This document shows positions 11,954 through 55,362 of a stretch of 64,000 bases of DNA, in pieces (within the stretch, counting starts at the first letter, position 1; the number at the start of each line of letters is the position of its first letter). The notes under the pieces were generated by a model that saw only the letters and a list, made by a program, of their open reading frames with translations, was not told the origin of the DNA and ran no database searches. A program made the position numbers and the translations under genes. This DNA comes from Apostichopus japonicus. Lineage: Eukaryota; Echinodermata; Holothuroidea; Aspidochirotida; Stichopodidae. The stretch covers positions 14,900,001 to 14,964,000 of the forward strand of contig NC_092573.1 of NCBI RefSeq assembly GCF_037975245.1. The letters are read 5' to 3'.

Positions 11954-13986
11954 ATGAAACTCTTCACCCTGGTGACAATTTTCCTCTCGTATGAAGTTTT
12001 CGCTGCAATTCCGTTAGGTATTCCTTTAACTGTAGAACAATTGAAAGAGATCAAACGGAATCAAGGTATCATCCGAAACATCAAGCAAAACTATTTCAAA
12101 AACAGGAAATATTATTCCCATCTACCACCGATAATTCACCTGACCGAAGAACAGGAAGCAGAAATTCTTGAACATTATCGCCATTTCTTCAGGGCCTTTC
12201 CACCGGAGACGTTATCCAGTTACGTCTTCAATGGTACCGAGTACGGGGCGGATCCTGATCCATACGCCTCTGCCCCTGTCGGCTTCGAGGCCGTCTGTCC
12301 GTCTACGTCGGTTTATGAAGATATTCTATTTACCGTCAATGACATCAACGAAGTCCTACAGATGATACAAGTAAGTATTTAACAAGAATCACAATTTATC
12401 CGTCGTCATCCATAAGACAATACACACTGCATATCATTTCCTATAAATTAAATAATTTGATTAACTAACTCGTCAAAGTAATGTGGCCTCTAAGTCATTG
12501 TAGAAGTTTCCACCAGCCTAAATCTACCCATCATAGGATAGCAGACAAGTTGGCCATTTAGGGCACATTCAATTTTCCGTATCATGACCAAGGGGTAGGA
12601 GCCGGGGGCACTGGGGGTACGTGCCCCCCCCCCACTTTTTCCAAAATAGCAAATGTGCCCTACTGGCAAAAAAATGTGCCCCTTTGAACTGTCTTTTGAA
12701 TATCTTAAGCCTTTGTTAATTTAATATTTTATTTTAATTATTTATTTTTAGTCTGTACATGCAATTTTTAAAATAGCGCAGTTAACAATAAACAATCTCA
12801 GTAAATAGGATTGATAGCATACCAATACATCATATATATTTAAGTGATATGGCCGGTGTGTATCGGTTTATAGCATAACGAGTGGTGGTTGTGGAATGAG
12901 AAAGTACCCCTCTAATGTTGTGCCCCCCCCCCCCCCACACACACACACATACACTTTTTGGAAGCTTCCTACCCCCTGATCATGACCATGTACATTTTGT
13001 GCTATGAGAGCCTGAAGTTTTCGTCACTTAGTCAAAAAAATCCTCTTAATTAAAAGTAAGCAAAATTCGTACGCTGCTCCGGGTAGACCTTAAGTTTACA
13101 ATTGCCTCAATTGACCCAAATTTCGCACCAATTTTAAGCCATAAGAGAAAAAAGGTTCCGTTTGATATAGCACATCGAAACGTATTCGCCTGTTGGTTTT
13201 CCTGAGGGAGAACATTGCGAGGATTGATACGACTCCATATTTGGAGTATGCTACCATAAGTCTATATGCATGCCAGTGATGTTGTTTTGTCAGTGGTGCT
13301 GCCAAAAATTATCAAATTTTTGTTACTAATGTTACCGACTTCTTGTATCGTTTTTATTGTTTTCTAATTTCATCTTATGTTTTTATGTTTAATTTCGCTA
13401 TAAAAATATGAAACAGAGAAACGAAAGGAAAGGAAAACGGTTTCACTTTTTTCAGCTTTGACGCCCGTTTTAAGAGTGAGGGAGTTTAAATTAAAATAAC
13501 GTTTGTATCAATATGACCTTTCATGATACTATGTAGGCTCTACTATCTGTTAAGAATTCGCATTTTACCGTAAGGTTGGGACCCAAAATTTGGTTGACGT
13601 CCGTTCTGGGGAGGAGTATAAGGGAAATCCCCTCCCCTTTGAGATTTTTTTTTTGCCGTGCCCGTTCTGTCCCTGAAGTTTCCCCTCCACCCCACCCAAT
13701 CCCCAACCCCCACCCCACCCCCTCTGACTACGCCGCTGGGTGTAAACAAGTTATAGAACAAACATTCTGAATAATAGCATATTTTATTACTTGATTACAG
13801 ATGGAATCGTTTGAACAATGGGTGTTAAATGAAACGTGTGACTCGACTTCAGGTAACGTCGTGGGCACAGTTTGCCTTGAACGGGAACGATTGATCGACG
13901 CCGTAGTCATTAATCTCGAAACGAGCGATACAACTTTCGAACAAATCAAAGTATTCTGTTGCTCAGCCTACAGCGACATTTCATAG
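11954..13986 (+). CDS. Secreted Spaetzle-like cystine-knot protein, copy 1
   Basis: Two coding exons, 11954-12370 (donor GTAAGT) and 13801-13986 (acceptor TTACAG, stop TAG), joined in phase 0: 200 aa. Residues 1-17 are a signal peptide (MKLFTLVTIFLSYEVFA). The middle is a hydrophilic pro-region, and the C-terminal part starts at CPSTSVYED. It then shows WVLNETC, a single Cys, and CC after exactly 27 residues, with IKVFCC at the end. That CPS...ETC...C-x27-CC order, and the spacing of the last step, match the Spaetzle fold as I remember it, but only five cysteines remain, so two of the usual seven are missing. An upstream acceptor (TCTAACAG, ending 11870) suggests a 5'UTR intron. Copy 2 at 28163 shares the architecture and intron position. 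A neurotrophin-related cystine knot is the main alternative. Likely role: extracellular ligand (inferred). Confidence 0.72.
12589..12978. mobile_element. Short hAT element in the intron of Spaetzle-like copy 1
   Basis: The left end CAAGGGGTAGGAGCC and right end CTTCCTACCCCCTG are imperfect inverted repeats. The 8-bp target duplication ATCATGAC is perfect (12581-12588 and 12979-12986). The 390-bp element has C/G runs just inside each end and no transposase. Confidence 0.9.
13605..13739. mobile_element. hAT remnant, right half
   Basis: Carries a variant of the G-rich hairpin module seen in neighbouring elements (GGGGAGGAGTATAAGGGAAA, then the C-rich arm) and ends ACTACGCCGCTG, like a hAT right terminus. 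No matching left end or target duplication found, so it is truncated. Confidence 0.45.
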
Positions 13987-16300
13987 ATGTGTAGAGGAAA
14001 CTAACAATGGCGTTACGTCATCGACTCGGAAGCGATCTTTATACATCATTATTCGAAGACACAACAAAGAGTGAGAATACGTCACTATAGAGTGTCACGG
14101 CGTTCACACCAGTCTGGGAAGTTGAACGCAACCTGATCCTGGGGGATCAAAATTCTGAATCCAGGCCTTCTGCGAGTTCTCAGTAGTGAGCATTCGTCAC
14201 CATGCTCGGACTAGTGTTACACAGTAATTATAAGCAAAAGAATGTGATAAACTCACCAATTATTGGTAATAAAAAAATGTTTGTAAGGAAACTTATATGT
14301 TGGGACAACATTGTGGCTAAGACTCATAATATAAACCTGTCAAGACTTTCAAACTGCTAGACATACATACTAAACTGGTCTCGCTGTTGTCAGTAAGTAT
14401 ACAACCACACTATAAGTCTTTTGTTTCGAATTTTGGAAGAAATATTTTATATCTTATGATATTTATATATGGAAACCGCTTCAAGTTTAATCGGATGATT
14501 GCATAATCAACGGTATACTATATCATTCATTTTCCTTTATTCTATTTGTGTATGATAACATAGAAAAGTATCAATTATGGTGATCTGTAGAGGTTAGACG
14601 ATGACCATGTGTTCGGGTCGATGGCGCTATACGTCCCGTGGCACCATGTGAACCACGCCACAGAAATATACATAACCGATTCCTCTCATTCCTGTGTCTC
14701 CACTCATGACCTCCGCCAACCATGATGTCTCCCTCCCTCTCCCCATCCCCCCCCCCACCTCCCTCCCCACACTCATATGATGACCACATCTCTTTTCAGG
14801 TTCCAAGGATTTCAAATAGGAATTTGTATACAGATCCCGCTTAACCACCATTTACAGCCACCGGTTGCTAACGTTATGATTACTATTTCACAGATTTATG
14901 TATCTTTATGCAATTTATTGTAATAGATGAGGATTTGTTGGTTCAAAGAATCTAGCTGCCGTATGTGGTATGTCTCTTACCTCAATTTATGTGGGAAAAG
15001 AATTGAAAACTCACTGAGCGATTTGCGAACGAGGCTCACTTCGAATTGGAGAGTAAATACGTTACACACGGGTAAGAGTCATGGGGGTAATTACTTAATC
15101 CCATTCTCCGCCCCCCCCCCAACAACTCAAGGTGTTCAGCCATACTGCGGAGGACAGGATATTACAACAAAAGCAACAACAAGCTAGTTTATAGTACCAA
15201 ACACGTGTATGTGCGGTGCAATCGAAAAAGTAGTGAAAATGTTCCAAAAGTTGCAGAGCTTGCATCTAGTAAGCATTGTGCCAAAATTTATCATAGGAAG
15301 GGGAACCTCTCCCTTTAAACCACCGCCTGCATGGATGACATACCATATTAGCCCCCCCCCCCCATCCTGTCCAGCATTTGCGCCACTGGTAGAGTTACAT
15401 GTACGTCATTCCTTTTGCTGCCTGCTTTCTCTATAGTGTGAACGGAATACACTTAATGCTAGCCTATATAGCTTAGGCTGTATACGAAGAAGTCCATTTT
15501 ACACTTGGTTCAGTTATATATTCTTAGTCTTAATCAGATTTATAATACTTGCTCTGTACTTTTATTTTTCGGTGATTTCAAGTCTCATATGTTTGTGTTT
15601 ATGTACTGGTATTGATAGTAAGACCTCAACTTTACATGCCGTATCATATATACAAAGAATTATATAATATTCCTCTTACCGTATTACAACCTGTATTCTG
15701 TACTCTCTATAACTTCTTGTAGGATGTGAGTAAGCGTTCCTTAATTAATGAAAAACCAAATATCGATTCTTGGAGCTCCTAAGCCCATATAGCTGAGGGG
15801 GGGGGGGGGCAGGAATGGGCATCATTGCTTTCCTTGGTAATAATAGTATCCTATATCAGTAACTGTATAGTGCTATTTCTAATAATAAATACATGCCTGT
15901 TGTTCCTAAAATTTGAGGACGTAGTTTCTTCATGTACACATTGAAAGATAAAGAATTGCTTGTTAAATAAAAAGAGATAGGCGGAGAATATATTGGATCA
16001 ATGGCTTGCACATGGGCAAATTGTGAATCCACCTCCCCCTAAAAAGAGGTTCATCGTCCCGCATACCCCACCCCACCCCCCCCCCCCCAGGATCCGTTTC
16101 TAGGGGCACCCTGTGACAGGTGAAGTATATAATCTATTTCTTCCCTAATTGAACGAAAAATATCCCCCGACTGAACGTATTTTCCCCTAGTGACGAAGGA
16201 AGTTCGGGGTCACCCCTCCCCATTTCCCCTCCTTCCCCAACCTTTGTCAACGACACTGTTTCGAATCACTCTGGAGTTTTGCCTTGTTTTTTATTTAAAG
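13987..16300. other. Intergenic, 3' flank of Spaetzle-like copy 1
   Basis: Candidate poly(A) signals AATAAA lie near 14268 and 15887. C-rich tracts near 14745, 15115 and 15350 are probable decayed transposon ends; one (CGCCACTG, about 15383-15390) looks like a hAT terminus with no partner. No coding sequence supported. Confidence 0.45.
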
Positions 16301-16506
16301 CATAATGATTTGGCATTTAACGTAACGCTTCTCGTGGCTAACTACGAAATGACACAGAGCCCCATCATTTTGCTAGTTTGTTCACACTTCAAAAACATAG
16401 ATTCCAAAGACTGCGTCACGTTCGTGATTCCTGTTATTGCCATTAACATATTTGGAAGGTTTCTGGCGGATTTGCTGCTTAAAATCAACCTTGAGAACAT
16501 AGTGTG

Positions 16507-18230
16507 AGTACAAAAGCAAACATGTTCCTTGTTTTAATGATTATTTATCTTTTATTTTTTCTATCTTGAATATCGACAATGTTTTAATGATGTTATAGTC
16601 ATAATATATATTGTATCGATACCAACAAATATACACTCTGCGGCAGTGTGCGTCCAATTAAAATATTTATACGCGTTTTTTACAGTTCCTGTATGTACTC
16701 TAAATTGAAACTTTGGAAACTCATGAGTTTACTTGCAGAATTGAATTAATTTAGCTACAATGCGTTTGTCACTTCAAGGTGACATATTTTGGAAGCGTTC
16801 TGTTCATTGGGAAGCAAACAATTTCTAGTGTAAAAAAAAAAAACTTGCAAGCAACCCGAATATACACTATAGTGTTGCTGTCGTATTTATAACCAAAACA
16901 AGGATTGTGCGTTAGTACAACACATCATGCAAATAAATATAGACCTGAACTAAAACATCCTCCTATCTAGAAAATTCAGTTAACATTTGAGGTATTTTGC
17001 GGACTTGTTCTGTTAAATGTTCGTATTTGATATAATCTTAAAAGTACCCACAAACTATAACCATTTGGTTAGAAAACACACCATATGATAGTTTAGTCCC
17101 AGAATACTTATTTTATGACATAGATGTGTGTACATCTCGATTGGCCCTCCACCCCCCCCCCCCCTATCCGGACCTCCATCATTAAATCTTGTAGCATTCA
17201 ATTGATATCCTGTATCATCAGCTAGCAGTTGCGTAAAATAAATATTTGATTTGATTTATTTGTTTTTCACATGTAAATTTACAGTGTGAAGGAAGTCTTC
17301 CAAAAAGCGTACAACAGCTTAATAAAGTAGAAGACTCCCTGTATAAAGAAAAGAATTTACATATAACTACAAAATAGAATAATTCCACAATCAATGAATA
17401 CTATATGATGATATCTTTATATTATATCTATATATTATAATATTATATCTATAAATGGTTCTACTAACGTTCCAATCTCTATACACTTCCTTTATCAAGG
17501 TTGAAAGCCAGTTCCGCTTTCAAATTACTTTCCTTAAAGCATTTAGTCCTTCCCAGTTTTTTGCTTCTGTTTTTGTTGTTGTAACAAGAGTACACTTCTA
17601 TAAGAAAACGTACGGTACTGTCCATTTAACGCTGCACTTTGTTGTTGAAGTTGTTATATGTACTGGTGATAATATATATCCTTGTATCGTTCAAGGACTG
17701 ACCAGATACTTGAAATGAAATTTGTCACTTTAATACCAAAGAATTCGTACGAGGAAATAATAAACGTTGACATATACGGTATATCTGCAATGTATATGAA
17801 TATCGTTACGGTAGTATATACCCGGCTACCAGTACGCCGACGCTAAGACGTAATTTTAACTCCGTTTGTACAAACAGTGCAACGTTTCTTGTGTTTTTTT
17901 CCCCTTTTTTTTCTTGACAGTTACCTTAGAGGTACCTGAAAACATAATCTTGCTCTTTGAATAAAATCGCACCAGAAAGAATTAACTTTGACAAAAGTCC
18001 ATAATATATTAAATGTGTGAAACACGAAATGTTATGTACATGATTAAGATGCCAATATGTATAGTGAATTGTAAGTGATCAAATGATTGTAAGGGTTTGT
18101 ATATCTTAGTTAGATGGAGGGGGTCCCGCATATAGTGAATAATCTCAATACAACTTTTACAACCCAACTTGAAATTAAACCTCTCAAACTTTAGCTTCCT
18201 TCTCCTCCCTCACCCATGTAACTGTAATAA
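16507..18230. other. Gene-free stretch
   Basis: AT-rich. A C-run lies near 17150 and there is a stretch of interrupted TATA words near 17405-17455. Nothing coding is supported, including the open frame at 17455-17718, which shows no domain. Confidence 0.45.
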
Positions 18231-18238
18231 CGAAACAG

Positions 18239-18335
<97 letters not shown>

Positions 18336-18345
18336 AGCTGTTTCG
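18231..18345. repeat. (TA)n tract inside a palindrome
   Basis: CGAAACAGCGTGTGTGTATA precedes about 80 bases of TA. The tract is followed by ATACACAAGCTGTTTCG, the near-complement of the left arm, so the whole 115 bases can fold as a hairpin or cruciform. Confidence 0.85.
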
Positions 18346-19363
18346 TGGAAAGATATGGCCCTGACTAAAGTGCTAATTTCGAACCACAACTGGTGTAAAG
18401 AAATCGATGGGTTGAATAACAAGTGATACTTATACAGATCAGGTTTTAACTATGTATGGCGATAGTGTAAATCTCCGTGATCTAAAAGAAAGCAAAACAG
18501 AATACGGCACGCCATAGAGGCAATATTTTTTGATAAATAGTTGTGCCATGTATTATCGGACCAATACAACAAATGAGAAATGACTCTATGACTTGTTTTA
18601 AAGTCAAACCATATTTAGATATTACAACAACATCCATTATACACGAAGAAAACAATTATTATTATTTTTTCAATTTAGCTGGATATTAAAGAAGACAAAC
18701 TGAACCACTGATATTTGTCACTGTGATAGAGATAACTATCATGAACAACTTTCCGAAACATCAAAGAAAACTCTGATTCTATTTTGAATAAACGACAGAT
18801 TTAATGTTCCTTCACACACACACCGCTGAAGACTTGATGAATTTTAATGATGACATCATCGAGTCACATGTCAATCAACCTTTATGGGTTTTTTTTTCTC
18901 TCTCTATTATGTTATTTCTGTATTCGAGATCGGTTTTGCAAACGCTGATTATAATATATTCAACCTCTTAACATGAATTAATGGCGTTGGTCTCATATGT
19001 CAACGCTGATAATATTTTATCTTGAAAATACGAATAAAACACAAAAACAAGGTTTTAGGTCATATTGGCAATGTGACATCACAGATTTACACGACTTTAA
19101 ACTATGATATCTCCCTAACGGCCGGAGCACTATTTATCGTAGCTGTACAGGGGAGTTGTTCTTCAATAACATTCCTGTGGCATAGCGTAAAGATAAAGGT
19201 TTGCTTACTCTTTAAACCTTAAAAAGTCGTGACATCTATGCAGATATTCATTTGTTCACCGTGTGACAATGATTTTGTTTTACCGTTTAATATTTTTTTT
19301 TTTTTATAGTGGACTTAAACAGCGTTTGGAAGGTAATGCGTGAAAGTAAGTAAGTCCACTTAA

Positions 19364-20188
19364 ACAGCTTCTCGGCCTTTTGGCTAAGATCATGTGTAAT
19401 ATCTGTTCCATTTCGAGGGGAATTGTGATGCACATCTGACGATGATCACACAGTCACAGTCCCGATGCAAGGGGACTGGGGTTGAGTGCGGATCAGTCCA
19501 AGGGCGGCGGAACCGGGGGGGCACAGGGGGCACGTGCCCCCCCACTTTTCCTCAGGTTAAAAATGTGCCCTTTTTCTATATAAAAATTGAGGTGTCTCAA
19601 GTCAGCAAGAGGCCAGGGAACCAGAATAAACACTCGGGAAGGGCCGTTTCCGGCCATCTGAGGGCTTTGTAAAACCAAAAATTTTCTTGTACGCTCCCCG
19701 CCAACCGATGGTGGCGCTCCGCTCAGATAGTCGTGCATACAACTTTGCTAATCCTGGCTATGCCCCTGACTGTTAATGAATTTCTGTGGGTCAAACTCAA
19801 AGCTTTTTCGAATAAAAATAAATTGTTAAGATATTAACAAGAAATAAACTCTAATTCGGAAGATTCCTACATTAGCAACTAACATGATTTCACCTCATTT
19901 TTTTCACATTGGATATTGCAGTGCTATAGTATGCATATTTTCCTTGAGGGGGGGGGGGGGGGTGGGGCGTTGATGGAGTGATGTGTATACGCAAATAAGA
20001 TAATACAATAAGAGTTATAAAGGGTACTAAATATAAGGCTGCATCAGTCCAATCGAATTTCTGCAAAGTGCCCTTTGATGTCGGTGCCCCCCCAGATTAA
20101 AAATGCTTCCGCCGCCCTTGGATCAGTCGTTCGGTAGTTTGGTTTCGTGTCCAGGTTCTTTCCTGGGCGACTTTTTCTTAAAAAGTAT
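19364..20188 (+). repeat. U2-snRNA-derived element, copy A (split by a hAT)
   Basis: Begins GCTTCTCGGCCTTTTGGCTA, the 5' stem-loop region of U2 snRNA, and continues AAGATCATGTGTAATATCTG, close to the U2 branch-site pairing segment. It then departs from U2: a CAGTCCC/GGGACTG hairpin, and a terminal hairpin CCAGG-TTCTTT-CCTGG followed by GACTTTTTCTT (20188 end). The hAT at 19499-20120 interrupts it, with GATCAGTC duplicated at the break. Confidence 0.8.
19499..20120. mobile_element. hAT element inserted in U2-like copy A (622 bp)
   Basis: Starts CAAGGGCGGCGGAACC and ends TTCCGCCGCCCTTG. The perfect 8-bp duplication GATCAGTC (19491-19498 and 20121-20128) fixes the ends. G and C runs lie just inside the ends. 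The same family in the opposite orientation is at 24866-25523. No transposase. Confidence 0.95.
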
Positions 20189-21015
20189 ATAAACAGCTAT
20201 CCCATGGGGGAGGGGGGGCGAACAAAATGATGCTTGGGTTGCAAGATCCTTTGCAGAAATCACAGAAAACATGCTAACTTTAGTTTAGGCTTTTCCCATC
20301 GCCGATACAAAAGAACAAAATAAACTCTAAAGCCTGTGATTGGTATAGAATCATTTACAAACACTTGCATGTGATGTGTGTCGGGGTTGTCCACGGTTTC
20401 TTGTATTTAAAGTCGAAGTACCATAATAAAGTTGGGCACAGTGGTCGTGCGTACCAATCTTAAGATTGCATCATCGCCTATGCAAACCAAGATCGACGGG
20501 TGTTTACCTTGCAACAACATTAGCAATAAGTTACTTTCATCCAGCAGTGCAATCCAAATTTGGCGGGTGGAGGGGAGACGGGGGGGGGAGCTGATCGATG
20601 GGATGCGACCGTATACCAAAAAGTATGCTTGGTTGTGGTTGAAAAGATTGTTAACCGCTGGTTAAGCAACATTATTTGTAAAATACTACTTCCATGAAAG
20701 AAAGTCCATAAAAATTGACTGCTATTAGAGGAGTATAGAGACTATGATATCTCCCTTTACACGAAAAAGGTTTCTCTTTGTTGATTGGTTTGATTTGTGC
20801 ATGACCTTCTTCTTTAAACAATATCAACTGAAGGACTTTTTTCTATCCCACAACAATATTTATATATTAGATATATAGATTAATGAAGATCAATACAGCA
20901 TTGCAGGACAAGTTCAACACGTTATCAAGGTTCTATTGTTAGACTAGTTTTCGTTTACCTTGCCACTCAAGTTTTAACGCAGTCGGCGAACTAATTTACC
21001 GGTGTGCAGCATGAT
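20189..21015. other. Gene-free stretch between U2-like copies
   Basis: Unique-looking AT-rich sequence with two G runs (about 20205 and 20575). Open frames on both strands show no domain. Confidence 0.45.
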
Positions 21016-21510
21016 ATCGCTTCTCGGCCTTGATCATGTGTAGTATGTGTTCAGGGGCGGATCCAGGATTTTGAGAAAGGGGGGGCCGACATCCCGATGG
21101 TAGCACTTTAGTGATCTGCGTCCTGGGGGAGGGGTCTAGGGGGAGGGGTTGTCCCCCTCCCCCTTGGAAATTTTTGGTCAATTGTGAGTGCTTAGATGCA
21201 AAATGGTGAAACATTTCGCCAAAAACTAGAAAAACCAGAAACGTTGCAGACACGCTTTTTTTGTGCACATATTTTTTTCGATAGACACATATTTAACAAC
21301 GCTCAACAGTGCATGTAGAGCACTACAATGGATACACTATTATTGCGTCGATTGGTTTTTTTCTTTTGCGCGAAAATTATATGACACCAGATTCACCCCA
21401 AGAAAAAAACATAAAACAAGATATATTCAATGAGATAATTATGATATACTTATTAATGAAAGGGGGGTGTAGGCGGTTTTACACTATCTAACGCAACGTA
21501 GTCGCCAAGA

Positions 21511-23548
21511 ACCTGAAGTATTTTGGAATTTGTGGACTATTTCTTGCTTCCTATTGTATTAAAACAAAGCACCTATGTGAAAGACACAAATCACATTCTG
21601 AAAATTGTGGAAGCCACCCCGTTACCAAAAGCAGTAGTACTTGCTACACTCGATGTCGTCGCCATGTATACCAATACTCCCAAAGAGGAGGCATTAGATA
21701 TATGTCAAGAAGTCTATGAAAAGGCAGAAAAAAGCGAATATGGAATAAATAAAATATCTTCCATATCCATGCGCAAACTAATTGAACTTATTTTTAACAA
21801 GAAACTGTTTCGAGTTCAATAACCAATTCTATCTACAAAAGATCGGTTGCGCCATGGGTAGCCAAGCCTCTTCGGAAATCTGTGATATCGTCATGCATAG
21901 ACTGGAAAACCAGATTTTACCGACAGATAATAAAATCTTAAAATGGCTCCGCTATAGAGATGAAATTCTATGGCTTTACGACGGTTCACCTCAGGAACTT
22001 GAACAACTAGTACACAGGTTGAATGAAATTCACCGCTTCTTAAAGTTTACGGTAGAAATATTACACACCGAGGTAACATACCTAGATTTGAAAATCTTCA
22101 AAGGTCCAAGGTTTGAAACCAATGGGTTATTAGACACCAAAGTCTACACCAAACCCACGGAAACCTTCCAATACCTCGACAGAAACTCTGCACACCCACT
22201 TGCTACTTCTAAAGGCTTCATTAAAGGGGAAGTCTTACGATACGCACGTCTCTGTAACAATGAGACTGATTTCTTACAGAAAAAGAATGCGTTCACAGAG
22301 AAACTGTTACTCTGTAACTATAAGAAAGAGGAAATTCCCTCAGCCACGAAAGGCATAAAATTTGAAAACCGTGGGCAATACCTCACTACCAAACCTAAAC
22401 AAAAGGAACCACCAATGGTGTTCAAGCTTACCTATACACCCCATATCAAAACCACGCATTTGAAAAATGTACTTTTGAAACATTGGCACTTAATCTCGCA
22501 ACACGCGGACAGGGGCGTAGCGAAGGTTTTTTTTGGGGGGGGGGGTGTGGAGGATTTGATTTGCCGACGGATCTGGAAGTGGTGACTGAAATGGGGGAGG
22601 GGTCTAAGGGGAGGGGGTGTACCCCTCCCCTTTGGAAAATTTTTAGTTTGAAACGTCCTTAGATGCAATCTGGTGCATATTTTAAGTCAAATTTGGCACC
22701 GTAGAATTTCCATTTCGATATTATTTTTTATGGCAGTCGGCAGAAGGATTAATTGGGACCAATTATCGAACTGTGTTTTCTCTTTCACCGATCGTTGAAA
22801 TAGTGAAACTTCGTGATGAAAATGTTCAGAAAACTTTTCGGTAATGAGAAATAACAACATTCATTGATATACAAGCGAGAAACGTTAAAAATTGTGTACA
22901 ATTCGTGAGCCGTGTCCTTAAGTTTTCCACGGAGAACGAATGACATCTGCGATGACGTCATTCTGAACAGAGGATAATAACAACACGTTGTCACACGATA
23001 GCACGACTCATGGGCTGCGGCCTATACGGAAGCCTTTAATTCCATTTCTTTCACTGAGTTGCCGGCGATTCTGGCACTCGTCTAGCTGAGCCTGGCTACA
23101 GTAGCTATACTGACGGCCGTGACATTATCAGTTATTTGCCGAGAGGTTTTTAACTTGCAGGCGTCGGGTGATTGGATTGGTGAATGAAGAACTGGAAAAT
23201 CGAAATAACCGATAAAGAAGCTCCCGTTCTCCTTTTCTCTATTCAGCTTTCCTTCTTTCTTCCCCTTCCGCTCTCTTCACCTTTTGTCCTTTTGCCGACA
23301 GACCCAAAATTTGCCGAAAGCGACCAAATTATTGGGGGATGTGACACCCCACCCCCCCCCCCCCGCTCGCTACGCCCGTGCACGCGAAATTATCCAAACT
23401 GTTTCCAAAAGAACCGATTCTAGCCTACAAAAGGGCCCAAAATCTCAAAGATTTACTTGTTAACTCAAGGTTTCATACTAACGAAGAATCAGCTGACTCT
23501 CAAGGTTCACACGAAACTCTTTTAGATGCTCTTATAGCTGCACTATGA
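21511..23548 (+). pseudogene. Penelope-like reverse transcriptase, broken
   Basis: Reads in pieces: 21511-21806, then a +1 shift near 21806-21815, then on to 22509; after the hAT it resumes at 23381 and stops at 23546-23548. Motifs in order are ATLDVVAMYTNTP, GCAMGSQASSEICD, RYRDEILWLYDG (where the catalytic pair is usually YxDD), TYLDLKIF, TKPTETFQYLDRNSAHP, and PILAYKRAQNLKDLLV after the insertion. These are the Penelope-family blocks. No GIY-YIG endonuclease follows; the frame ends about 30 residues later. The frameshift, hAT insertion, lost N-terminus and D-to-E change make it inactive. Confidence 0.82.
22510..23380. mobile_element. hAT element inside the reverse transcriptase (871 bp)
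   Basis: Left end CAGGGGCGTAGCGAAGG, right end CGCTCGCTACGCCCGTG. The duplication CACGCGGA/CACGCGAA (22502-22509 and 23381-23388) matches at 7 of 8. It carries the G-rich hairpin module (22607-22630) and long G and C runs inside its ends. Its removal restores the reading frame of the retroelement. Confidence 0.92.
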
Positions 23549-23628
23549 GTCCATAAAAACTCGTGCACAGAAAATAGATGCATTTTGAGAACGAGACGCC
23601 CAGGCCGAATATAAAATATTCGAAGGCT

Positions 23629-23679
23629 ACTACTGATGAAGCTCCTCCTATAAAGTTTGAGAGCAGAAACCGGTCTAGT
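23629..23679 (+). ncRNA. Candidate type I hammerhead ribozyme in the Penelope-like element
   Basis: The core boxes are present and ordered: CTGATGA at 23633-23639 and GAAA at 23666-23669, then CCGGTC with the predicted cut after C at 23675. Stem I pairs ACTA (23629-23632) with TAGT (23676-23679). Stem II pairs GCTC with GAGC around a 14-16 nt loop. Stem III is only CC/GG, as in the minimal retroelement ribozymes. An A-A mismatch sits at the base of stem II. Hammerheads are known in Penelope-like elements, which supports the call. Activity is not shown. Confidence 0.6.
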
Positions 23680-23846
23680 TGGTCATAAGAACCTATACAC
23701 TAGTCTCTCCTACTATTAACAGTATACACTCAATTCACCTAATAGGTGCAATTATGTTTCACCACGAGGAGCATGCTATAAGTTCATGTTCCTCGGGCCC
23801 TCCCTTAAAAATACTTCAGGTTCTTGGCGACTACGTTGCGTTAGAT

Positions 23847-24254
23847 CAGGGTTGTCCAACCTTTTGCAGAGGAGGGCCACATGGAATGATTATGATGAAG
23901 GAGGGGGCCGCATTAACTCTACGCTCGATTTTTCGATTTTTTGCCCGAAGCCCAAGGCAACAAAATGTGAACACTGCGCGCGGAGCGCACTGATTTATTT
24001 TTCTTCCTGATAAAACAGATGAATGAAGTCCAGCCGCCCCGCCCCCCCCCCCTCCGCTGAGAGAGTGTCACACAAACTGACCTGTATGCAGTTTTGTGGA
24101 CCGAGAAGGTTCGAATGATTGATTGTATAGCTTCAAATTGTTATCAATAAATCTGCTCACTAAAATTTCGCACTGTAGAGCATCTCTGGCGGGCCGGACG
24201 CAACCCTGCGGCGGGCCGGACTGTGGCCCGCGGGCCGTAGGTTGGACAACCCTG
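23847..24254. mobile_element. Short hAT element, CAGGGTTGTCCAACC family, copy 2
   Basis: Ends CAGGGTTGTCCAACC and GGTTGGACAACCCTG. The perfect 8-bp duplication CGTTAGAT (23839-23846 and 24255-24262) lies within the retroelement's inverted arm. It is nearly colinear with the copy at 11335-11749, with small indels. Confidence 0.95.
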
Positions 24255-24865
24255 CGTTAGATAGTGAAAAACCGCCTACACCCCTTTCATTCAGACATAG
24301 GCGTACGGGACCATTTCAGTTTGGGGGGACAGAACTTTTTGTGCCCGAAAGTTCCCGTGACACTATCTAAGCGGAGCGCCACCATCGGTTGGCGCGTAGC
24401 GTACAAGAAAATTTTTGGCACACAATGCCTCTCAGATTGCCGGAAACGGCACTTCTGAGGCCTTGCAAGTTGCATCTAAACATTCTTTATTTTATAATCT
24501 CACGTTTTAGAAATTTACACTTCCCCAAAAATTTGGTAAATTAGAAGAAGAAAAAATGGTAACATCACTTTGAAGGGGAAAAATGGGACAGTATATATTT
24601 TAAGCTCCTATTTAAGTTACCGTATTTATTATTTTAACACAGTACTCAGCTACCTCCAGAAAAAACATACATTGTTCAACGACACGTAGGCGGGATAATG
24701 TCGCTGTGTCGGGTGAGACTGCAATTTGTCTCACAAAAAAGTATAAAATATAACAAAGAATATGATAAACCTGTACTTCTAGGCTTGTAGGCACTCCCCC
24801 CTCCCCCCACCATCCATGAAAAAGAAAATGTTTCTTATATACACTCATGTTGGGGATGTCCAGGT

Positions 24866-25523
24866 CAAGGGCGGCGGAAGCACTTTAATCTGGGGGGGGG
24901 GGCACTGACATCAAAGGGCACTTTGCAGAAATTCGATTGGACTGATGCAGCCTTACATTTAGTCCCCCTTATAACTCTATTTGTATTATCTTATTTGTGT
25001 ATACACATCACTCCATCAACGCCCCCCCCCCCCCCCAAAAGGAAAATATGCATACTAGCACTGCAATATCCAATGCGCAAATTGGGAAACAAGGAACAAG
25101 TTTTCTTTTGAGACAAAATGAGGTGAAATCATGCTAGTTGCTATTGTAGGAATCTTCCGAATTAGAGTTTATTTCTTGTTAATATCTTAACAAATTTTTT
25201 CCATTCGAAATAGCTTTGAGTTTGACCCACAGAAATTCATTAAAAGTCACGGGCTTAGCCAAGATTTGCAAAGTTGTATGCACGACTATCTGAGCGGAGC
25301 GCCACCATCGGTTGGCGCGGAGCGTACTAGCAAATCTTTGGTTTTACAAACCCCTCAGATGGCCGGAAAAGGCCCTTCCCGAGTGTTCATTCTGGTTCCC
25401 TGGCCTCTTGCTAACTTGAGGCACCTCAATTTTTATGTAGAAAAAAGGCACATTTTTAACCTGAGGAAAAGTGGGGGGGGGGGCACGTGCCCCCTGTGCC
25501 CCCCCCCCGTTCCGCCGCCCTTG
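24866..25523. mobile_element. Nested hAT, same family as 19499-20120, opposite orientation
   Basis: Starts CAAGGGCGGCGGAAGC and ends GTTCCGCCGCCCTTG. The perfect 8-bp duplication GTCCAGGT lies at 24858-24865 and 25524-25531. It includes the block GAGCGGAGCGCCACCATCGG, which also occurs near 24370 in its host element. Confidence 0.95.
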
Positions 25524-25714
25524 GTCCAGGTATACAATTGAATAGTTAGAAAAAAATTGATCGTGCCAAAAGCGTGGTAGCCCAGATGAACTGCGCTTAC
25601 GGTGGTGTTACACGGAAATATTCGGGCATCATGATGCTAAATAAAGAAAATCATGGAATTGTCTGGCAAAAACTTGAAAAAGATTCGGGCAAGCTACTGC
25701 ATATTTATATATAT

Positions 25715-25870
25715 ATTTCCAGAGGACAAGAAACTCGGGCAAAAGTCCTGAAAATTCGGGCAGCCTAAGAGGAGAAAAAAAAAAAAAAAAAATATATATA
25801 TTTTTTTTTCTCCTCTTAGGCTGCCCGAATTTTTCAGGACTTTTGCCCGAATTTCTTGTCCTCTGGAAAT
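25715..25870. repeat. 156-bp palindrome with A/T centre
   Basis: The left arm starts ATTTCCAGAGGACAAGAAA and the right arm ends with its complement (...TTTCTTGTCCTCTGGAAAT). The arms match over about 65 bases with few mismatches, around a centre of A18 then TATATATA then T9. Confidence 0.9.
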
Positions 25871-26386
25871 TTGGGGGGGGGGGCAGTCTGCCCCCCTGCC
25901 CCCCCCCCCGCCTCGTACGCCTATGCATTCAGATAATTATGATATACTTGCTAACTGTGCATTGATTTTCCCTGACAGTAATAGTCAGCACTATAGTACT
26001 GAGCCGTATCTAATTAATACGTGATGTCGCGTAAGCCTGATAATTGCCTTAGTTTCAAATTTGGAATAAACACGATCGCGTTTCAGGGAAGAGCAGCTGG
26101 ATATATATTAGGCTTTTCTTTCAACAAGTTATGCCTATTAGGAATTTGAAGTACTCCCACATAAAAAAAACGCAACTGATTTCCAAAAAGGGGGGGCCGG
26201 GGCCGTGTCGGCCCCCCCCCCTGGATCCGCCCCTGGTGTTCTTTTAGGGAATGGTGATGCACACCTGACGATGATCACACAGTCACAGTCCCAATGCAAG
26301 GGGACTGGGGTTAGAAGTGGATCAGTCGTTCAGTAGTTTGGTTTTCGTGCCCAGGTTCTTTCCTGGGCGACTTTTTCTTAAAAAGT

Positions 26387-27300
26387 ATCGCTTCTCGGCC
26401 TTTTGGCTAAGATCATGTGTAGTATCTGTTCCCTTTCGAGGGGAATGGTGATGCACACCCGACGATGATCACACAGTCATAGTTCCGATGCAAGGGGACT
26501 GGGGCTGAGAGCGGGTCAATCGTTTGGTAGTTTGGTTTTCGTGCCCAGGTTCTTTCCTGGGCGACTTTTCCTTAAAACAATTATTATATTCGCTTCTCGG
26601 CGTTTCGTCTAAGATCATGTGTAGTATATGTTCCCTTTCGGGAGGAATAGTGATGCACACCCGACGATGATCACACAGTCACAGTACCGATGCAAGGGGA
26701 GTGGGGTTGAGAGCGGATCAGTCCTTCGGTAGTTTGGTTTTCGTGCCCAGGTTCTTTCCTGGGTGACTTTTCTTAAAAAAAGTATTATATTCCCACACAG
26801 TCACAGTCCCGATGCATGGTGAGTGGGGTTGAGAGCGGATCAGTCGTTCGGTTGTTGGGTTTTACGTGCCCAGGATCTTACCTGGGTGACTTTTCTTAAA
26901 AAGTATTCCCATTGTAGGGGAATCGTGATACACACCTGACATAATCATACAGTCACAGTCTCGATGCAAGGGGACTGGGGTTGAGAGCGGATCCGTGGTT
27001 CGGTTTTTCGTGCCCAGGTTCTTTCCTGGAGACTTTAAAAAAAAAAAAAAAGTAGCATTATGTTCCCCTTGTAGGGGGAATCATGATACACACCTGACGA
27101 TGATCTAACAGTCACAGTATCGGTGCAAGGGAACTGGGGTTGAGAACGTATCAGTCGTTTGGTTGTTTGCTTGATTTTTCGTGCCCAGGTTCTTACCTGG
27201 GTGACTTTTCTTAAAAGTACCAAGGGATCGTGTAGTATATCTATTATGTGGTTAAGAGTTGGTTTTTGTGCCAGGCTTTATTTTGGGTGACTTCTTTGTG
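26387..27300 (+). repeat. Degenerate head-to-tail array of U2-snRNA-like units
   Basis: Six units in tandem, starting near 26387, 26589, 26792, 26907, 27063 and 27218. The first keeps the U2 5' region GCTTCTCGGCCTTTTGGCTA and GTAGTATCTG. The second keeps it with changes. The third lacks the 5' part, and later units start in the CCCTTTCGAGG hairpin. All but the last, most decayed unit retain the CAGTCCC...GGGACTG hairpin region, and most keep the terminal hairpin CCCAGG/CCTGGG and the GACTTTT tail. Decay increases towards the right. Confidence 0.8.
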
Positions 27301-28162
27301 TGATATATACGGACGCGACACAGACTTAACATACTATGACTCTCTATATATGTATAATTATAACAGACATATATGATTCCAACTGGGTATTTCACGTTTT
27401 TGTTTGTAATTTTAGCATTTTTTTGTGTGAGTTTTTTTCGATGCAAGTTACCTCAATTTTGACAACTTATCGAGTATTGATCAAACTAAGATGAATTCTC
27501 AGTCATCGTTTTGTAACATCCAATATACATCCTCTAATCAAATATACTCGGTTGTCTTAGAAACTGATGACCTTTCATGTACCCTTTATCTCCTCATTGC
27601 TTATATGTCCTGCCCGTTACCTCTCCAACCTACACCCAGCCACCCTCCTTAGACCATCAGTCAATGACTCTAGCGCTGTCAAACCTCTTTCAAACAGGAC
27701 AAGAAATGTGCAATTTTCTTTCTCTCCACCTCTCTCTCTCTCTCTCTCACTCTGTTTTCCAGAGTTCTATTCTCTCTTTTCTTTGAATCAACCTGTCTTG
27801 GAATCAGTAGTATTGCTTTAGTTCCGACCTAGTCTACCAACCTCCCCCCCCCCTACCCTTCCCCTTCCCACCACCGCACGGCCCTATCCACCCATTCACT
27901 CAACTATAGGCCATGGTTGTTGTTTTTCTTGTGTACACACCAAATCGTTTGCTTTAGTTTTGTTTGTTTGTGGTCGTTTTGTTTTGTTTTGTTTTTGTTG
28001 TTGTTGTTGTTGTAGAGCTGCTTAATTATTCAACTTCCAATGTTACAGTAGAAACCTTAGAGGTCATGAAAATTAAGTATTAAAATATGGTCTTTGTCTT
28101 GATATTGTTTCACAGGGATCAATCTTAAAGCTGTAACTTGGGGCTATAAGTGCTGAGTTGAA
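27301..28162. other. Upstream region of Spaetzle-like copy 2
   Basis: Holds a (CT)n tract (about 27725-27750), C-rich runs (27840-27880) and T/G repeats (27955-28015) ending GTTGTAG at 28014, which could be the acceptor of a 5'UTR intron. No coding sequence is supported before the ATG at 28163. Confidence 0.45.
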
Positions 28163-30401
28163 ATGGCAAATTGGACGAAGCCGCGACTTGTATTGTTCTC
28201 TTTGGTTTTCGCCTTCTCGATCGAGGTTGCAAAATCAGTTTGCAACCCTCTTGCTGTTTCAGAGTTATGCCTGGATTCGCAACAGCTGAATAAGATCAGC
28301 CTCGATGCGCCTGTTAGATTAGATATCAGAACGAATTACTATACAGATGTAGCTCACTATTCCAAACTTGCTCCGATTGTCACCTTAACACCGCAACAAA
28401 TTGCGCTGATCCAAGACAAATATGGAGCCTTTTTCAAGCCAACTCCACCTGCGGCAGTACCATCTTCCTATGTTTATGGCGGGACGGTACACGGCGGACT
28501 GACCGTAGGACGAAGACGCCGTCAAGCTGAACCTTATGTTTGCCCATCAACAGGAGTTTACTCTGACATCAATTTCTGCATCAGCGCTGCCGGTGATGTT
28601 CTCCAGATGGTTCAGGTAAGATTCATTTAACTTTACTGCGCATGGCGGATTGATCTTGCATGGGGTAAAGTTTCGACAATTGAAATCATGTCTAGGCGAC
28701 GAAAAATGTTTAGAATAGACAGCATTCATTAATTGTTACGCAATGTTTCTGAGGGAAAACATCTAGAAATGTGTGAAAGTTTCATCAGGTGTACTGTTAA
28801 TGTGGAATAGTACTCTGTGTAGGTTTGTTATAAGTGTTGGAAACTGCGTACCAACTACATGAAAGAAAGGAGAGAGAAAGATGGGTGGAGAGAGGTGCAA
28901 AGGTGGTAGGATGTAAGGTAATATGTTAATATGTTGCACCTCCTTTACTTATTGACATAATCAGGCTGAGGTTATGTCAAGTTGGATGCTAACTCGATGA
29001 TTTTGTACGTTCACAAAAGCGTTATCAAACTTCACCAAGAAAGAAAACAACAATTTGAAGAACGGGTCAACTCTGTTAGCTACCCAACAGTGGAGTGCTC
29101 AAAGCGGGCCCGAACCAAACCCCCATCTTCCATTGTCAGTCGGGGCAAATGGATCAGTCGGAGGATTCATTACATTGAGCCGAGGAAGAATTAGACCACT
29201 GTTACACGTGTATAACCCCTATTCAACCTCACACAAGAAATCATAAGTATTATATTTGCACAGCCTTGTGTATAGAACTAATTATGGACGTAAATATGAA
29301 TCGGAATGAATCAGTTGTTGTTTTTCTAGAGGGGGAACCAAACCCCCAAACATGGGAGTCGCTTTCAACGACCCGACGGCCCCACCCCCTCCTTTATGAA
29401 AATTTTTCGTTCGCCTCTGGTCCTTCCATAAAAGTACAACGACTACATATATCAGTCGGGGATCCCACACCCCCCCCCCCACCCCAGCCTTTGAAATCCA
29501 GTGTGCACTCCACTCTCTGTGACCCTACTTGCTCTTCCATCAACTCCCTCAGCTATATTGCTGAAGCTGTCATTACAGGTCAACCTTATACCCTGTATTC
29601 CCAGTGCACAAACCCCAGTTCAATGAGTTTTTATGATCATGGAGGTAAAACAGACCTCCATGTTATGATTGGAAAGGTTAGTTTATTGTGAAAGACAGCC
29701 AGTTGCTTCAAAGCAAACCATGACGTCATTTCTCGGGTTATTAGGTAATGTATAACAGATGAATAGTTCGTTTCCATTGGTTGCAAAATTTCAATCAAAA
29801 CATGCAATGTAAGCTTTAACAACAAGATCAGAAACAAATGCCACGAAAGTCTCATGTTTTCGTATTTTGATTTTGGCTTCGAAGGGGATGGAGCAAGCGG
29901 GGGGGGGGAAGCGGGGGGGAGGAGAGGTGGCCAGTATTTTTACTAGAGCCGACGTCTGTATAATGTTTAAGAAACCATTCTTCAACTCTTTTATGGTTAT
30001 TGGTATGTAAAGTACGTTGATGGCGTATTTACCTTGATTTTTTTTACAAGGAACGGGGGGGGGGGGGGGTTTGGGGAAGTGGTTTGTTGAGGGCTCTTCT
30101 TCACATGATCGGAGATGGTAATATTCTTAACAGAAAGTATTCTGCGATCTCGAATTAGGTTTCTTCTCCATCAGAATCATTGCCTCACTCTTTCTTTTAC
30201 TTCTCCTTCAAGTTGGCAGATGCCTTCCAATGGGTGCTGACGGAGACGTGTCAAGACCCTGCTGCAAATGGCGTTCCAAATACTATTTGTGTCGACAGGA
30301 TACGTAACATTCCGGCGGTGGTTGTGAATGTAGACAACGGGGACAGTGTCGCTGTAGAGATGATCCAAGTCAGTTGTTGTGCTGCTCGCGAAGCCACATA
30401 G
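28163..30401 (+). CDS. Secreted Spaetzle-like cystine-knot protein, copy 2
   Basis: Two coding exons, 28163-28615 (donor GTAAGA) and 30213-30401 (acceptor CTTCAAG, stop TAG), phase 0: 213 aa. Residues 1-24 are a signal peptide (start MANWTKPR, hydrophobic core LVLFSLVFAF). The pro-region has two cysteines and a furin-like GRRRRQ site just before YVCPSTGVYSD, as in processed growth-factor precursors. The mature part shows CPS, QWVLTETC, a single Cys, and CC exactly 27 residues on (IQVSCC). The intron cuts at the same place as in copy 1 (after QMVQ/QMIQ). Eight cysteines after the signal peptide, five shared with copy 1. Assignment to the Spaetzle fold is by pattern. Likely cleaved, secreted and disulfide-linked (inferred). 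Confidence 0.75.
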
Positions 30402-31932
30402 ACCAGAGATAAAAAATCAAGGCTTGTTGTAACAGGATTAAAATAAACTTGGGCTGACAGACTCACTGACAGGGGCACGCCCATCTCCCTGTAGCTCCCT
30501 TCCACCAGGGGAAACGTTGAGCCACGTGTTCCTCTCATCTCCATACTCCCCCCCCCCCCCGCTGCTCTGGTGTCCGGCAGACATCTTTGTTCGACATAAA
30601 GTAACGATGTAAGGGACCTCTCGTTCCATACATAATCTTTAAGCATACACGCACTTCTTAAAACTATTGACTTGCAGTTTTTTTCTCCATTTTATTCTTA
30701 GGTGGAATGAAACCTACATTATAATCTCTTTGTTGGAAATTGCACCTCTCATGTTTTTAGTGTTAACTTACCCTGGTTATTATATACCTCTTACCCTATG
30801 TGGGTTTTTGTGTGTTCCAGGAAACAATATACAACGTACCAATTCACTCCAAGTAAATCCACATTACATTTCATCCAACTGGTATATTCTTCATTACCTA
30901 CTTTGTATTCATTGTGCGGGGCGTTAACGATGCTGCATGCATTGATTACAGTTCTCACAGTGTCGCAAAGTATTCCCCTGTCCCAATAGTTATGAGGATG
31001 TGGGAACAATGGGATGGGGTACCCATCCCCCACCCCTCACACCCCCTCCCCACACTTTCATAATACCTTTTCCAGGGATAGGAACGGAGCGGGATTTTGT
31101 TAACATAATGATATTAAATGGATAAGAAAAGTGAACCCAAGATGATATTAGAGATGGGATGAAATTCGAGGTGATCTCACGATATGCTTTCGTTCTACCT
31201 CTTCTGTTCGGATTTCTTACTTTTTAAAGAAATATGTCATTAAGCCATTAAGGAATTCCGCCGTTAAGAAATTCAGCCAGATTATTTTGTTTTCTTTAAA
31301 AACTAAGGAAATTGTTATCGTTTCCAAGAAAGTTATAAGTCGCAAGAAGAATGTCGACGTGGTGATATTATATATCTCTACAACCAAAATCCTCAACAAT
31401 TTTTAATGATGCAAAGAAATACATATCATAAAAAAAGACCTGTAAAGAAATTGACGAACATGTTTTGACTGCAAGACATACATACATACATTCATAGCTT
31501 TACTCGGTTTTTGTATGCCAGACGTATGTCTGACGTCACTTCCTGTTTAGAAGTGTTCAGAAATGTGTAACTTAAAGATTTCCATGTATTGTATTTGCAG
31601 ATTTTTTAGTGATTCGAATACGCTAATATTACAACTACCGTACTTCCGATCCGCAAAGGCCTACACTCTAATACTATACAGAAGGGGGAAAACACATCTA
31701 TATTTTACATATTCACTTTGCCAATGTTACTGATTTTACTATGTAAATTTAATGGTTATTTGGGAAACATTAAACTCGTCACAAAAATGCAGCTGTAATG
31801 GTTTTCTTTTTGTGGCTTTTATATTGAGCTACTTACTTGCTTGGGTGACTTGTGGGTCCCAGTACCCCCACCCCACCCCATCCCATCCCATGTTCCCCAC
31901 CCCCAAACAACACTTTCACGTGTGTTTTGTTG
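30402..31932. other. Intergenic between Spaetzle-like copies 2 and 3
   Basis: AATAAA-like sequence at 30440 (AAAATAAACTT) may be the poly(A) signal of copy 2. A hydrophobic frame near 31795-31855 could be a relic of a signal peptide for copy 3, but it is interrupted by a C-rich insertion (31860-31905). Nothing else coding is seen. Confidence 0.4.
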
Positions 31933-32344
31933 ATTTACATTTCGGGCCTCAATGCCGAATGTGACAATGAAACATGCCTTACTATCCTCGATAGTACGGA
32001 AATATTACTGACCGAGGATCAAAAGGTCCCATATAGCCGCGGAACGTACGAGCATTGACCAACTGACCACTCGGTGTGGTCAAGAGCAATATGATTACTT
32101 TGACGTCCTGGCAACAGCCTGTCATCGTTAACTTAACCAAGGAGCAAGAATTTCTTATCCTATCAAAGTATGGTTACTTGTTTTAATCTGAGCCGTTTGT
32201 TTCTTTGGAAGATGTCTCGAAGAGCTTGGGCGATCTTCGCCTCAGGATGAGAATACCCCCTTCCTGCGACCCCTTTGTCCAATCGATCAGCCATATGAGG
32301 ATGTCATATCTGTCATAAACGGAGATCTCTTGCAGATGGTTCAG
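31933..32344 (+). pseudogene. Spaetzle-like copy 3, broken exon 1
   Basis: Remnants align in order with copy 2: AECDNETCLTI (cf. SVCNPLAVSELC), then IVNLTKEQEFLILSKYGYLF followed by a stop (cf. IVTLTPQQIALIQDKYGAFF), then LRPLCPIDQPYEDVIS and GDLLQMVQ with a donor GTAATA at 32345. They sit in different frames with stops between, so the exon is dead or contains unmodelled introns. No second exon was found downstream to 34 kb. Confidence 0.65.
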
Positions 32345-33800: not shown

Positions 33801-34888
33801 AAAGAAAACATAAAAAGAATATGAGTAGTTTAACAAGGTTAGTTTGAAAAAGGATTTTTCAGATTTTAAAGGCAACAGCTTTCTTCTTAAATAGGGTTTC
33901 AGTTACTGAATTATGTCGATTACCGAGAAAAATGGGGGGGGTGCGGGGAGGGGGTAGTGAATTCTTCTAGACTAAGTAGTACAGCTACTCCCATTGGTGA
34001 GACAACCTGATGTTTAAAGGGTCAATTCCCAAAAGCAGTTTCAAAGTAAATATGTTTTTGGATAGCAGTGGATTTTATCAGATAGGCCTAATTAATATCA
34101 AAACTAAATTCTCGCAAACAGTCTTTCAGTAACGTCATTTTGTATCTGGCGAATGAGCAAACACAAATGCTGATGAAATTTACGTTTCTTGTCCATTACT
34201 TTGCAGGATAAACAGATAGAAAAACATAATCATTAATAGAATTACGAAATAATTCTTTCATATAAAGGACAGGTTCAGCAATATTGAAAAAGTTGTTGAC
34301 CTTTGTAGAGTGATTAAAGAAAATATCGATTTTAGCTGTCGCCAAAATAATTGATCTATTATGTCCAAAATAGATGGTGAAAAATCAGTCATTCCCATGA
34401 TGCAAGACTTCGATATGACAGAACGTAGGCTATGTGAATTTTACAAACAATGTTCTTTTTTTAGTCTGTAAAGAATTAATATTTTGGATTGAAACAATAA
34501 ATTCAATAATCAAAAATATGACGTCACGAAAATTTGGTGAGAAACATCTAAAGAAAATTAATACATTATCATGAAAAAGTTGATGAAGGCAAAGTAAGTT
34601 GAATGAATTAATGAATAACTTCTAATGAATTGAGTATGAAGGGTATACCGCCTGCTACAAAAGTGTTTGGTTGAAAGAAACCTTTTACGTACCGTTAACA
34701 TGTTTAAAATGTTTACTGGATCTTGGCAATTGAAACATTAATAAATGAATGAAGATTGACAACAGTTCAACAAAATCAACATTTTTAATGAAATCATCAA
34801 ATTTCATTTATTGCAACCAGTATAAATATAGCATATTTATAAAAAGGAGTACACATGTCAAACTCAAAAATAAATAAATATGCATGCA

Positions 34889-37391: not shown

Positions 37392-37644
37392 TTAGTAAAA
37401 TTAAATGAGAGGTTCCAAAATTACCAAATTGAATGTATATTGCAGCACGGTAGATGAAAGAGTTCTTATAAAGTTGAATTCTATATTCTGGCAAGGTATG
37501 AGGGTTCCTTAGATTCCTGGTAGCTTTCACCAACAGACAATTAAGTGGCCCATGTAGTGGGTGATCTTTGTCATCTCTAATTGTATTTGTCATCCTTACA
37601 AATTCATTCTTTGCAGCTAAATATCGAGTAAATAGATCACCCAC
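37392..37644 (-). pseudogene. 3' tail of a non-LTR retrotransposon ORF
   Basis: On the minus strand the frame reads DHPLHGPLN, then TRNLRNPHTLPEYRIQLYKN and SFIYRAAIYI, a pattern typical of the C-terminal end of LINE reverse transcriptase proteins (R..YKNSF..RAI). The frame runs straight into the 97-bp satellite and uses one unit before a stop. No upstream reverse transcriptase is seen beyond 37644, so this is a 5'-truncated copy. Confidence 0.6.
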
Positions 37645-55200: not shown

Positions 55201-55325
55201 CGCCCATAGCCTAGTGGTTAGGGTGTCCACATATAAAGCGGGGGTCCAGGCTTCGAATCCCGGTGGAGGCTGGAAGTTTTTTCACTGTTCTGGATTTTCC
55301 CACTAATTACGTTTTCAAAATATAT

Positions 55326-55362
<37 letters not shown>

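Follow-up and report, generated by a model that had tools for sequence, protein, structure and literature searches.

The window, a 64,000-nucleotide stretch of contig NC_092573.1 (positions 14,900,001 to 14,964,000), contains two intact two-exon genes, here called gene 1 and gene 2, and a broken third copy. Gene 1 and gene 2 are old tandem paralogues whose products are probably secreted, processed proteins with a cysteine domain. Tentatively, we read the two products as divergent dimeric ligands of the Spaetzle/neurotrophin type that have lost one bridge of the cystine knot. The layout of the proteins is firmer evidence for a processed secreted ligand than for descent from Spaetzle or neurotrophins, and the genes are not assigned to either family because defining features were tested for and did not appear.

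The preliminary description of this DNA proposed two intact two-exon genes and one broken copy, and the reading frames, the splice sites, BLASTP, and tblastn all bore this out. The parts of the three copies are as follows (Cys I to Cys VI denote the knot cysteines):

11954-12370, + strand: coding part of gene 1 exon 1, an open frame from ATG with the donor GTAAGT and paralogy with gene 2; it contains a signal-like start, the pro-region, Cys I (C115, CPST), and the end LQMIQ.
12371-13800, + strand: predicted gene 1 intron, phase 0, 1430 bp, GT..AG (CAA|GTAAGT...TTACAG|).
13801-13986, + strand: gene 1 exon 2 including the stop codon, with Gln, Cys II, Cys IV, a long hairpin region, and CC.
28163-28615, + strand: coding part of gene 2 exon 1, an open frame with paralogy with gene 1; it contains a signal-like start, the pro-region, RRRR, Cys I (C127, CPST), and the end LQMVQ.
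28511-28522, + strand: RRRR, residues 117-120 of gene 2, a possible furin-type site 6 residues before Cys I, where cleavage may occur.
28616-30212, + strand: predicted gene 2 intron, phase 0, 1597 bp, GT..AG (CAG|GTAAGA...TTCAAG|).
30213-30401, + strand: gene 2 exon 2 including the stop codon, with Gln, Cys II, Cys IV, a long hairpin region, and CC.
32118-32195, + strand: pro-region piece of the relic exon 1, ending at a stop codon (tblastn, shuffles).
32273-32344, + strand: Cys I piece of the relic exon 1 (LCPIDQPYEDV...LLQMVQ) in another frame, followed by GTAATA (tblastn, sequence, shuffles).

The spliced products comprise 200 residues for gene 1 (11954-13986) and 213 residues for gene 2 (28163-30401). 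Both introns are in phase 0 directly after LQMIQ or LQMVQ, confirming the common intron position noted earlier, and both separate Cys I from Cys II. In the ~500 bp scanned 3' of each stop codon, a single hexamer resembling a poly(A) signal (AATAAA or ATTAAA) was detected, at 14268 for gene 1 and at 30437 for gene 2.

The two proteins were aligned by BLASTP over nearly their full length, with 81 of 211 positions identical (38%, expectation value (E) 3e-42), and their cysteine domains were 47% identical in the MAFFT alignment. The earlier remark that only short blocks match is therefore not true of the proteins, which align end to end. Over 189 aligned codons, the proportion of nonsynonymous differences (pN) was 0.385 and that of synonymous differences (pS) was 0.846, a value so saturated that the distance was not computable. 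Taken separately, the pro part had a pS of 0.823 and a pN of 0.404, and the cysteine domain had a pS of 0.875 and a pN of 0.363. Because pN was well below the saturated pS, gene 1 and gene 2 are an old tandem duplication kept under purifying selection. The suggestion of fast evolution found no support, as synonymous sites were saturated and pN was less than half of pS.

The broken exon 1 copy spans 32118-32344 and consists of two pieces in different frames, with a stop codon in the first. In tblastn, gene 1 matched it at E 3.4e-4 and gene 2 at E 0.011, and the matches extended to 32356 or 32347. The lowest best E among 60 dinucleotide-shuffled windows was 0.012. Because none of the 60 reached the relic values, 0.011 being cleared narrowly, the broken third copy is more than chance. 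Exon 2 of this copy was not among the tblastn matches listed (E up to 100).

A hydrophobic N-terminal stretch was detected in both proteins (best 11-residue windows starting at 15 and 10, respectively), and these stretches were read as putative signal peptides. A pro-region of ~95 residues is followed by a cysteine domain of 87-88 residues that opens with CPST. RRRR precedes Cys I in gene 2 only; gene 1 has no basic pair at that place. The cysteine spacing is C-36-C-11-C-27-CC in gene 1 and C-36-C-12-C-28-CC in gene 2, which has one additional Cys within the first gap and two more upstream of it. For comparison, the spacing is C-36-C-6-C-13-C-29-CC-1-C in Drosophila Spz and C-42-C-9-C-11-C-27-C-1-C in NGF. 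The order CPS...ETC...C-x27-CC, earlier attributed to all three copies, holds for the two intact genes, but the exact x27 occurs in gene 1 only and gene 2 has x28; the broken copy reads CPI and has no visible exon 2, so that the pattern is one of two genes.

In both genes a Gln stands 7 residues before Cys II (QWVLNETC and QWVLTETC), as it does in Spz and NGF. The CC pair, in which an extra Cys lies beside knot Cys V, is present in gene 1, gene 2, and Drosophila Spz. Six knot cysteines and Gln44 are common to Spaetzle and neurotrophins (Wilson 2009, PMC2772990), and the Gln before Cys II is also given as a shared Spz/neurotrophin residue in PMC2586362. Pro13 is described as a mark of Spaetzle, and Trp130, before the last knot cysteines, as a mark of neurotrophins (Wilson 2009, PMC2772990). 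Both genes carry Ile where both Spz chains used here (Drosophila Spz and Aedes Spz1C) carry Pro, which we read as Pro13, and in the alignment neither gene has a Trp, the counterpart of Trp130, anywhere in the Cys IV-CC stretch.

Since the Cys I-II stretch is 36 residues long in gene 1, gene 2, Drosophila Spz, and Aedes Spz1C, it could be compared without gaps. Against the two Spz chains, the real score was reached by 225 of 20000 column shuffles, and by 648 of 20000 when the shared Gln column was left out; the figure for the Cys IV-CC stretch of gene 2 and Aedes Spz1C was 1827/20000. The gapless Cys I-II comparison appears to lend weak support to Spaetzle kinship; the features were picked after the data had been seen.

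The usable structure model was that of exon 2 only, in which half of the cysteine domain is absent. In the AlphaFold model of gene 2 exon 2 (residues coded from 30216), a strand was predicted at 4-8 and hairpin strands at 29-38 and 44-53, with CC at 54-55. The mean predicted local distance difference test (pLDDT) score was 71.4; ten-residue blocks over the strands scored 80, 88, and 86, and the block with the hairpin end and CC scored 64. The pro-region was predicted to be mostly helical, with low confidence. A predicted strand plus a long hairpin ending at CC would fit a Spaetzle-type domain. The cysteine spacing, the CC pair, and the Gln that precedes Cys II keep the Spaetzle idea alive.

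A number of results weigh against this kinship. In Pfam, neither protein had a Spaetzle or NGF match up to E 10, and the sole match listed was LSM14 with gene 1 (E 0.094). The matches in a phmmer search of the PDB were at chance level, among them galectin-4 (E 0.43) and a lymphocyte receptor (E 0.17), and a profile search with the two proteins gave two chance matches and no cystine-knot family. NCBIfam had no match for either protein; it had none for Drosophila Spz either and hence was no test. Knot cysteines I, II, IV, and V, as assigned by spacing, are present in both genes, and III and VI are absent. In the gapless Cys I-II comparison, just 3-7 of the 36 residues were identical to those of the Spz chains and the score was negative. 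One of the 35 other circular shifts outscored the true one. In a ranking of windows from these proteins, the true frame came 4th of 165 and 4th of 178, and some windows of the reversed proteins outscored it.

Small models were also built from four neurotrophins (NGF, BDNF, NT3, and NT4), two Spaetzles, all six of these, and two IL-17 proteins (IL-17A and IL-17F). With cysteines held fixed, the numbers of shuffles, out of 2000, scoring at least as high as the real gene 1 and gene 2 proteins were 568 and 1644 for the neurotrophin model, 160 and 94 for the Spaetzle model, and 262 and 230 for the all-six model. Full shuffles gave 531 and 1687, 125 and 78, and 120 and 160 of 2000, respectively. With the IL-17 model, gene 1 obtained no score, and gene 2 was equalled or exceeded by 576 of 2000 cysteine-fixed and 604 full shuffles. 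When the two-gene profile was compared by hhalign, the real score was reached by 161 of 300 column shuffles for the neurotrophin model, 75 for the Spaetzle model, 142 for the all-six model, and 237 for the IL-17 model. None of the small models was significant at a strict level, and Spaetzle gave the best of poor scores. A cystine-knot match by profile had been named beforehand as a test of the Spaetzle-like interpretation, and none was obtained in the Pfam, PDB, or small-model searches. What stands of that interpretation is the local family, the common intron, and the coding for prepro-type proteins that end in a cysteine domain; a Spaetzle-type knot was not established.

If the two products are divergent Spaetzle/neurotrophin-type ligands, each intact gene would give rise to a secreted precursor consisting of a signal peptide, a pro-region, and a cysteine domain. 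A furin-type protease could cut the gene 2 precursor at RRRR and free the cysteine domain; the gene 1 precursor, having no RRRR, would be cut some other way or left uncut. The domain, with its strand, Cys II, loop, Cys IV, long hairpin, and CC, may then act like a Spaetzle/neurotrophin ligand. Bridges I-IV and II-V would be retained, and III-VI would have gone together with both partners. In NGF, knot cysteines III and VI are partners; if they are partners here too, their joint absence has the look of the loss of one bridge. The spare Cys of the CC pair might link two chains into a covalent dimer. In Drosophila Spz, going by our count, it is presumably the first of the two cysteines in CC that makes the central dimer bond. 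The covalent dimer would bind a leucine-rich-repeat or similar receptor, and the genes would descend from the Spaetzle/neurotrophin superfamily.

It is possible, though doubtful, that the genes instead represent a lineage-specific secreted cysteine-rich family with no cystine-knot kinship, in which the Spaetzle spacings arose by chance; such a family might serve the extracellular matrix, defence, or regeneration. No profile search found a family match, two knot cysteines are missing, and tandem secreted cysteine-rich families lacking homologues have a precedent in Apostichopus japonicus, whose PSP94-like cluster takes its name from its cysteine topology (PMC5638244). However, the exact 36-residue gap, the Gln, the CC pair, the prepro layout, and the predicted hairpin jointly fit a Spaetzle-type domain.

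That the genes belong to another cystine-knot class (IL-17, sclerostin/CTCK, or similar) with cysteines lost, and not to the Spaetzle/neurotrophin branch, seems improbable. Knot ligands commonly have a hairpin ahead of their last cysteines, as predicted here, and in the fold search with the exon 2 model sclerostin came 20th of 92, although its E of 5.7 is at chance level and the search with this half domain gave no significant match. In contrast, the IL-17 models did no better than shuffles (576/2000 for gene 2 and 237/300 by hhalign), and the Gln and the Cys I-II gap point to Spaetzle; classes besides Spaetzle, neurotrophin, and IL-17 were covered through the Pfam and PDB searches. Finally, recent silencing of the intact copies or a misjoining of exons, with no such proteins made, is very improbable: the gene models are predictions from sequence alone, a relic copy adjoins, and transposon-like sequence lies between gene 1 and gene 2, but both copies are open over their full length and agree in their phase-0 splice sites, and pN is well below pS.

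Should the Spaetzle/neurotrophin kinship be true and the host a deuterostome, Spaetzle-type ligands would occur in protostomes and deuterostomes alike. According to a 2009 report, such ligands had not been found in deuterostomes (PMC2772990). The kinship would then bear on the question left by Wilson 2009 (PMC2772990) of whether Spaetzle-type ligands predated the protostome-deuterostome split and were then lost or had a protostome origin. It would also mean that this ligand fold can survive the loss of one knot bridge. The fuller version of this reading is unlikely but deserves mention, namely, a deuterostome Spaetzle-type branch that kept the dimer Cys and the Gln, lost one knot bridge, and was tandem-expanded in a 64-kb window with a DAP3 exon. 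If the kinship is false, what is left is two probably secreted cysteine-rich proteins that are under purifying selection and for which no family was found here.

Other features were observed in the window. Between gene 1 and gene 2, a 267-residue frame (21782-22585, + strand) reads like a reverse transcriptase; an RVT_1 match (E 3.3e-4) was obtained in one of 40 scanned frames and was tied to this position by reading. A frame at 55221-55595 (- strand) reads like an exon of DAP3, a mitochondrial ribosomal protein, with a P-loop, and is a possible synteny anchor; the Pfam DAP3 match (E 1.7e-15), likewise found in one of the 40 frames, was assigned to it by reading. At 26387-26463 and 19364-19451 (+ strand), the first ~45 bases of U2 small nuclear RNA are nearly intact and the sequence is divergent thereafter. 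The former segment sits in a 202-bp tandem array, and both look like U2-derived repeats, not U2 genes. A 97-bp minisatellite at 34887-37394 (25.9 copies, 98% matches) shows a strong local skew in both AT and GC. Two arrays of a 22-bp unit, at 48597-48742 and 49264-49387, run in opposite orientation; one contains TTCGCCCAACC and the other contains the complement of that sequence.

Compared with known ligands, the two genes resemble the Spaetzle family (Drosophila Spz C-106 and Aedes Spz1C; PF16077) in the signal/pro/cysteine-domain layout, the 36-residue Cys I-II gap, the Gln 7 residues before Cys II, the CC pair, and the long Cys IV-CC stretch. An intron somewhere inside the domain is a further likeness; introns within the knot have been reported in Spz, Spz2, Spz3, and Spz5 (PMC8296651) and are described for several Spz genes in PMC2586362. 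Aedes Spz1C is a covalent dimer whose central bond is conserved in Drosophila Spz (PMC9427763). Unlike the Spaetzle family, the present genes have no Cys III, Cys VI, or Pro13, have a shorter Cys II-IV stretch, and gave no significant sequence or profile match, and gene 1 has no basic cleavage site. Two conserved knot cysteines are also missing in Drosophila Spz6, whereas Spz6 has three extra, oddly placed cysteines and no conserved intron (PMC2586362).

Among neurotrophins, the sea urchin Sp-NT2 likewise has an intron-split coding region, and Sp-NT2 and the acorn worm NTb carry an extra Cys beside knot Cys V (Wilson 2009, PMC2772990). The Gln before Cys II, as a family mark, is a further likeness to the ambulacrarian NT2-type neurotrophins (Sp-NT2, NTa, and NTb), from which the present genes differ in having no Cys III and VI; the likeness is one of description only. 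The PSP94-like cluster of Apostichopus japonicus, also compared by description only, differs in comprising eleven genes named by a PSP94-like cysteine topology; like the present genes, its members are arranged in tandem, are cysteine-rich, and have no known homologues (PMC5638244).

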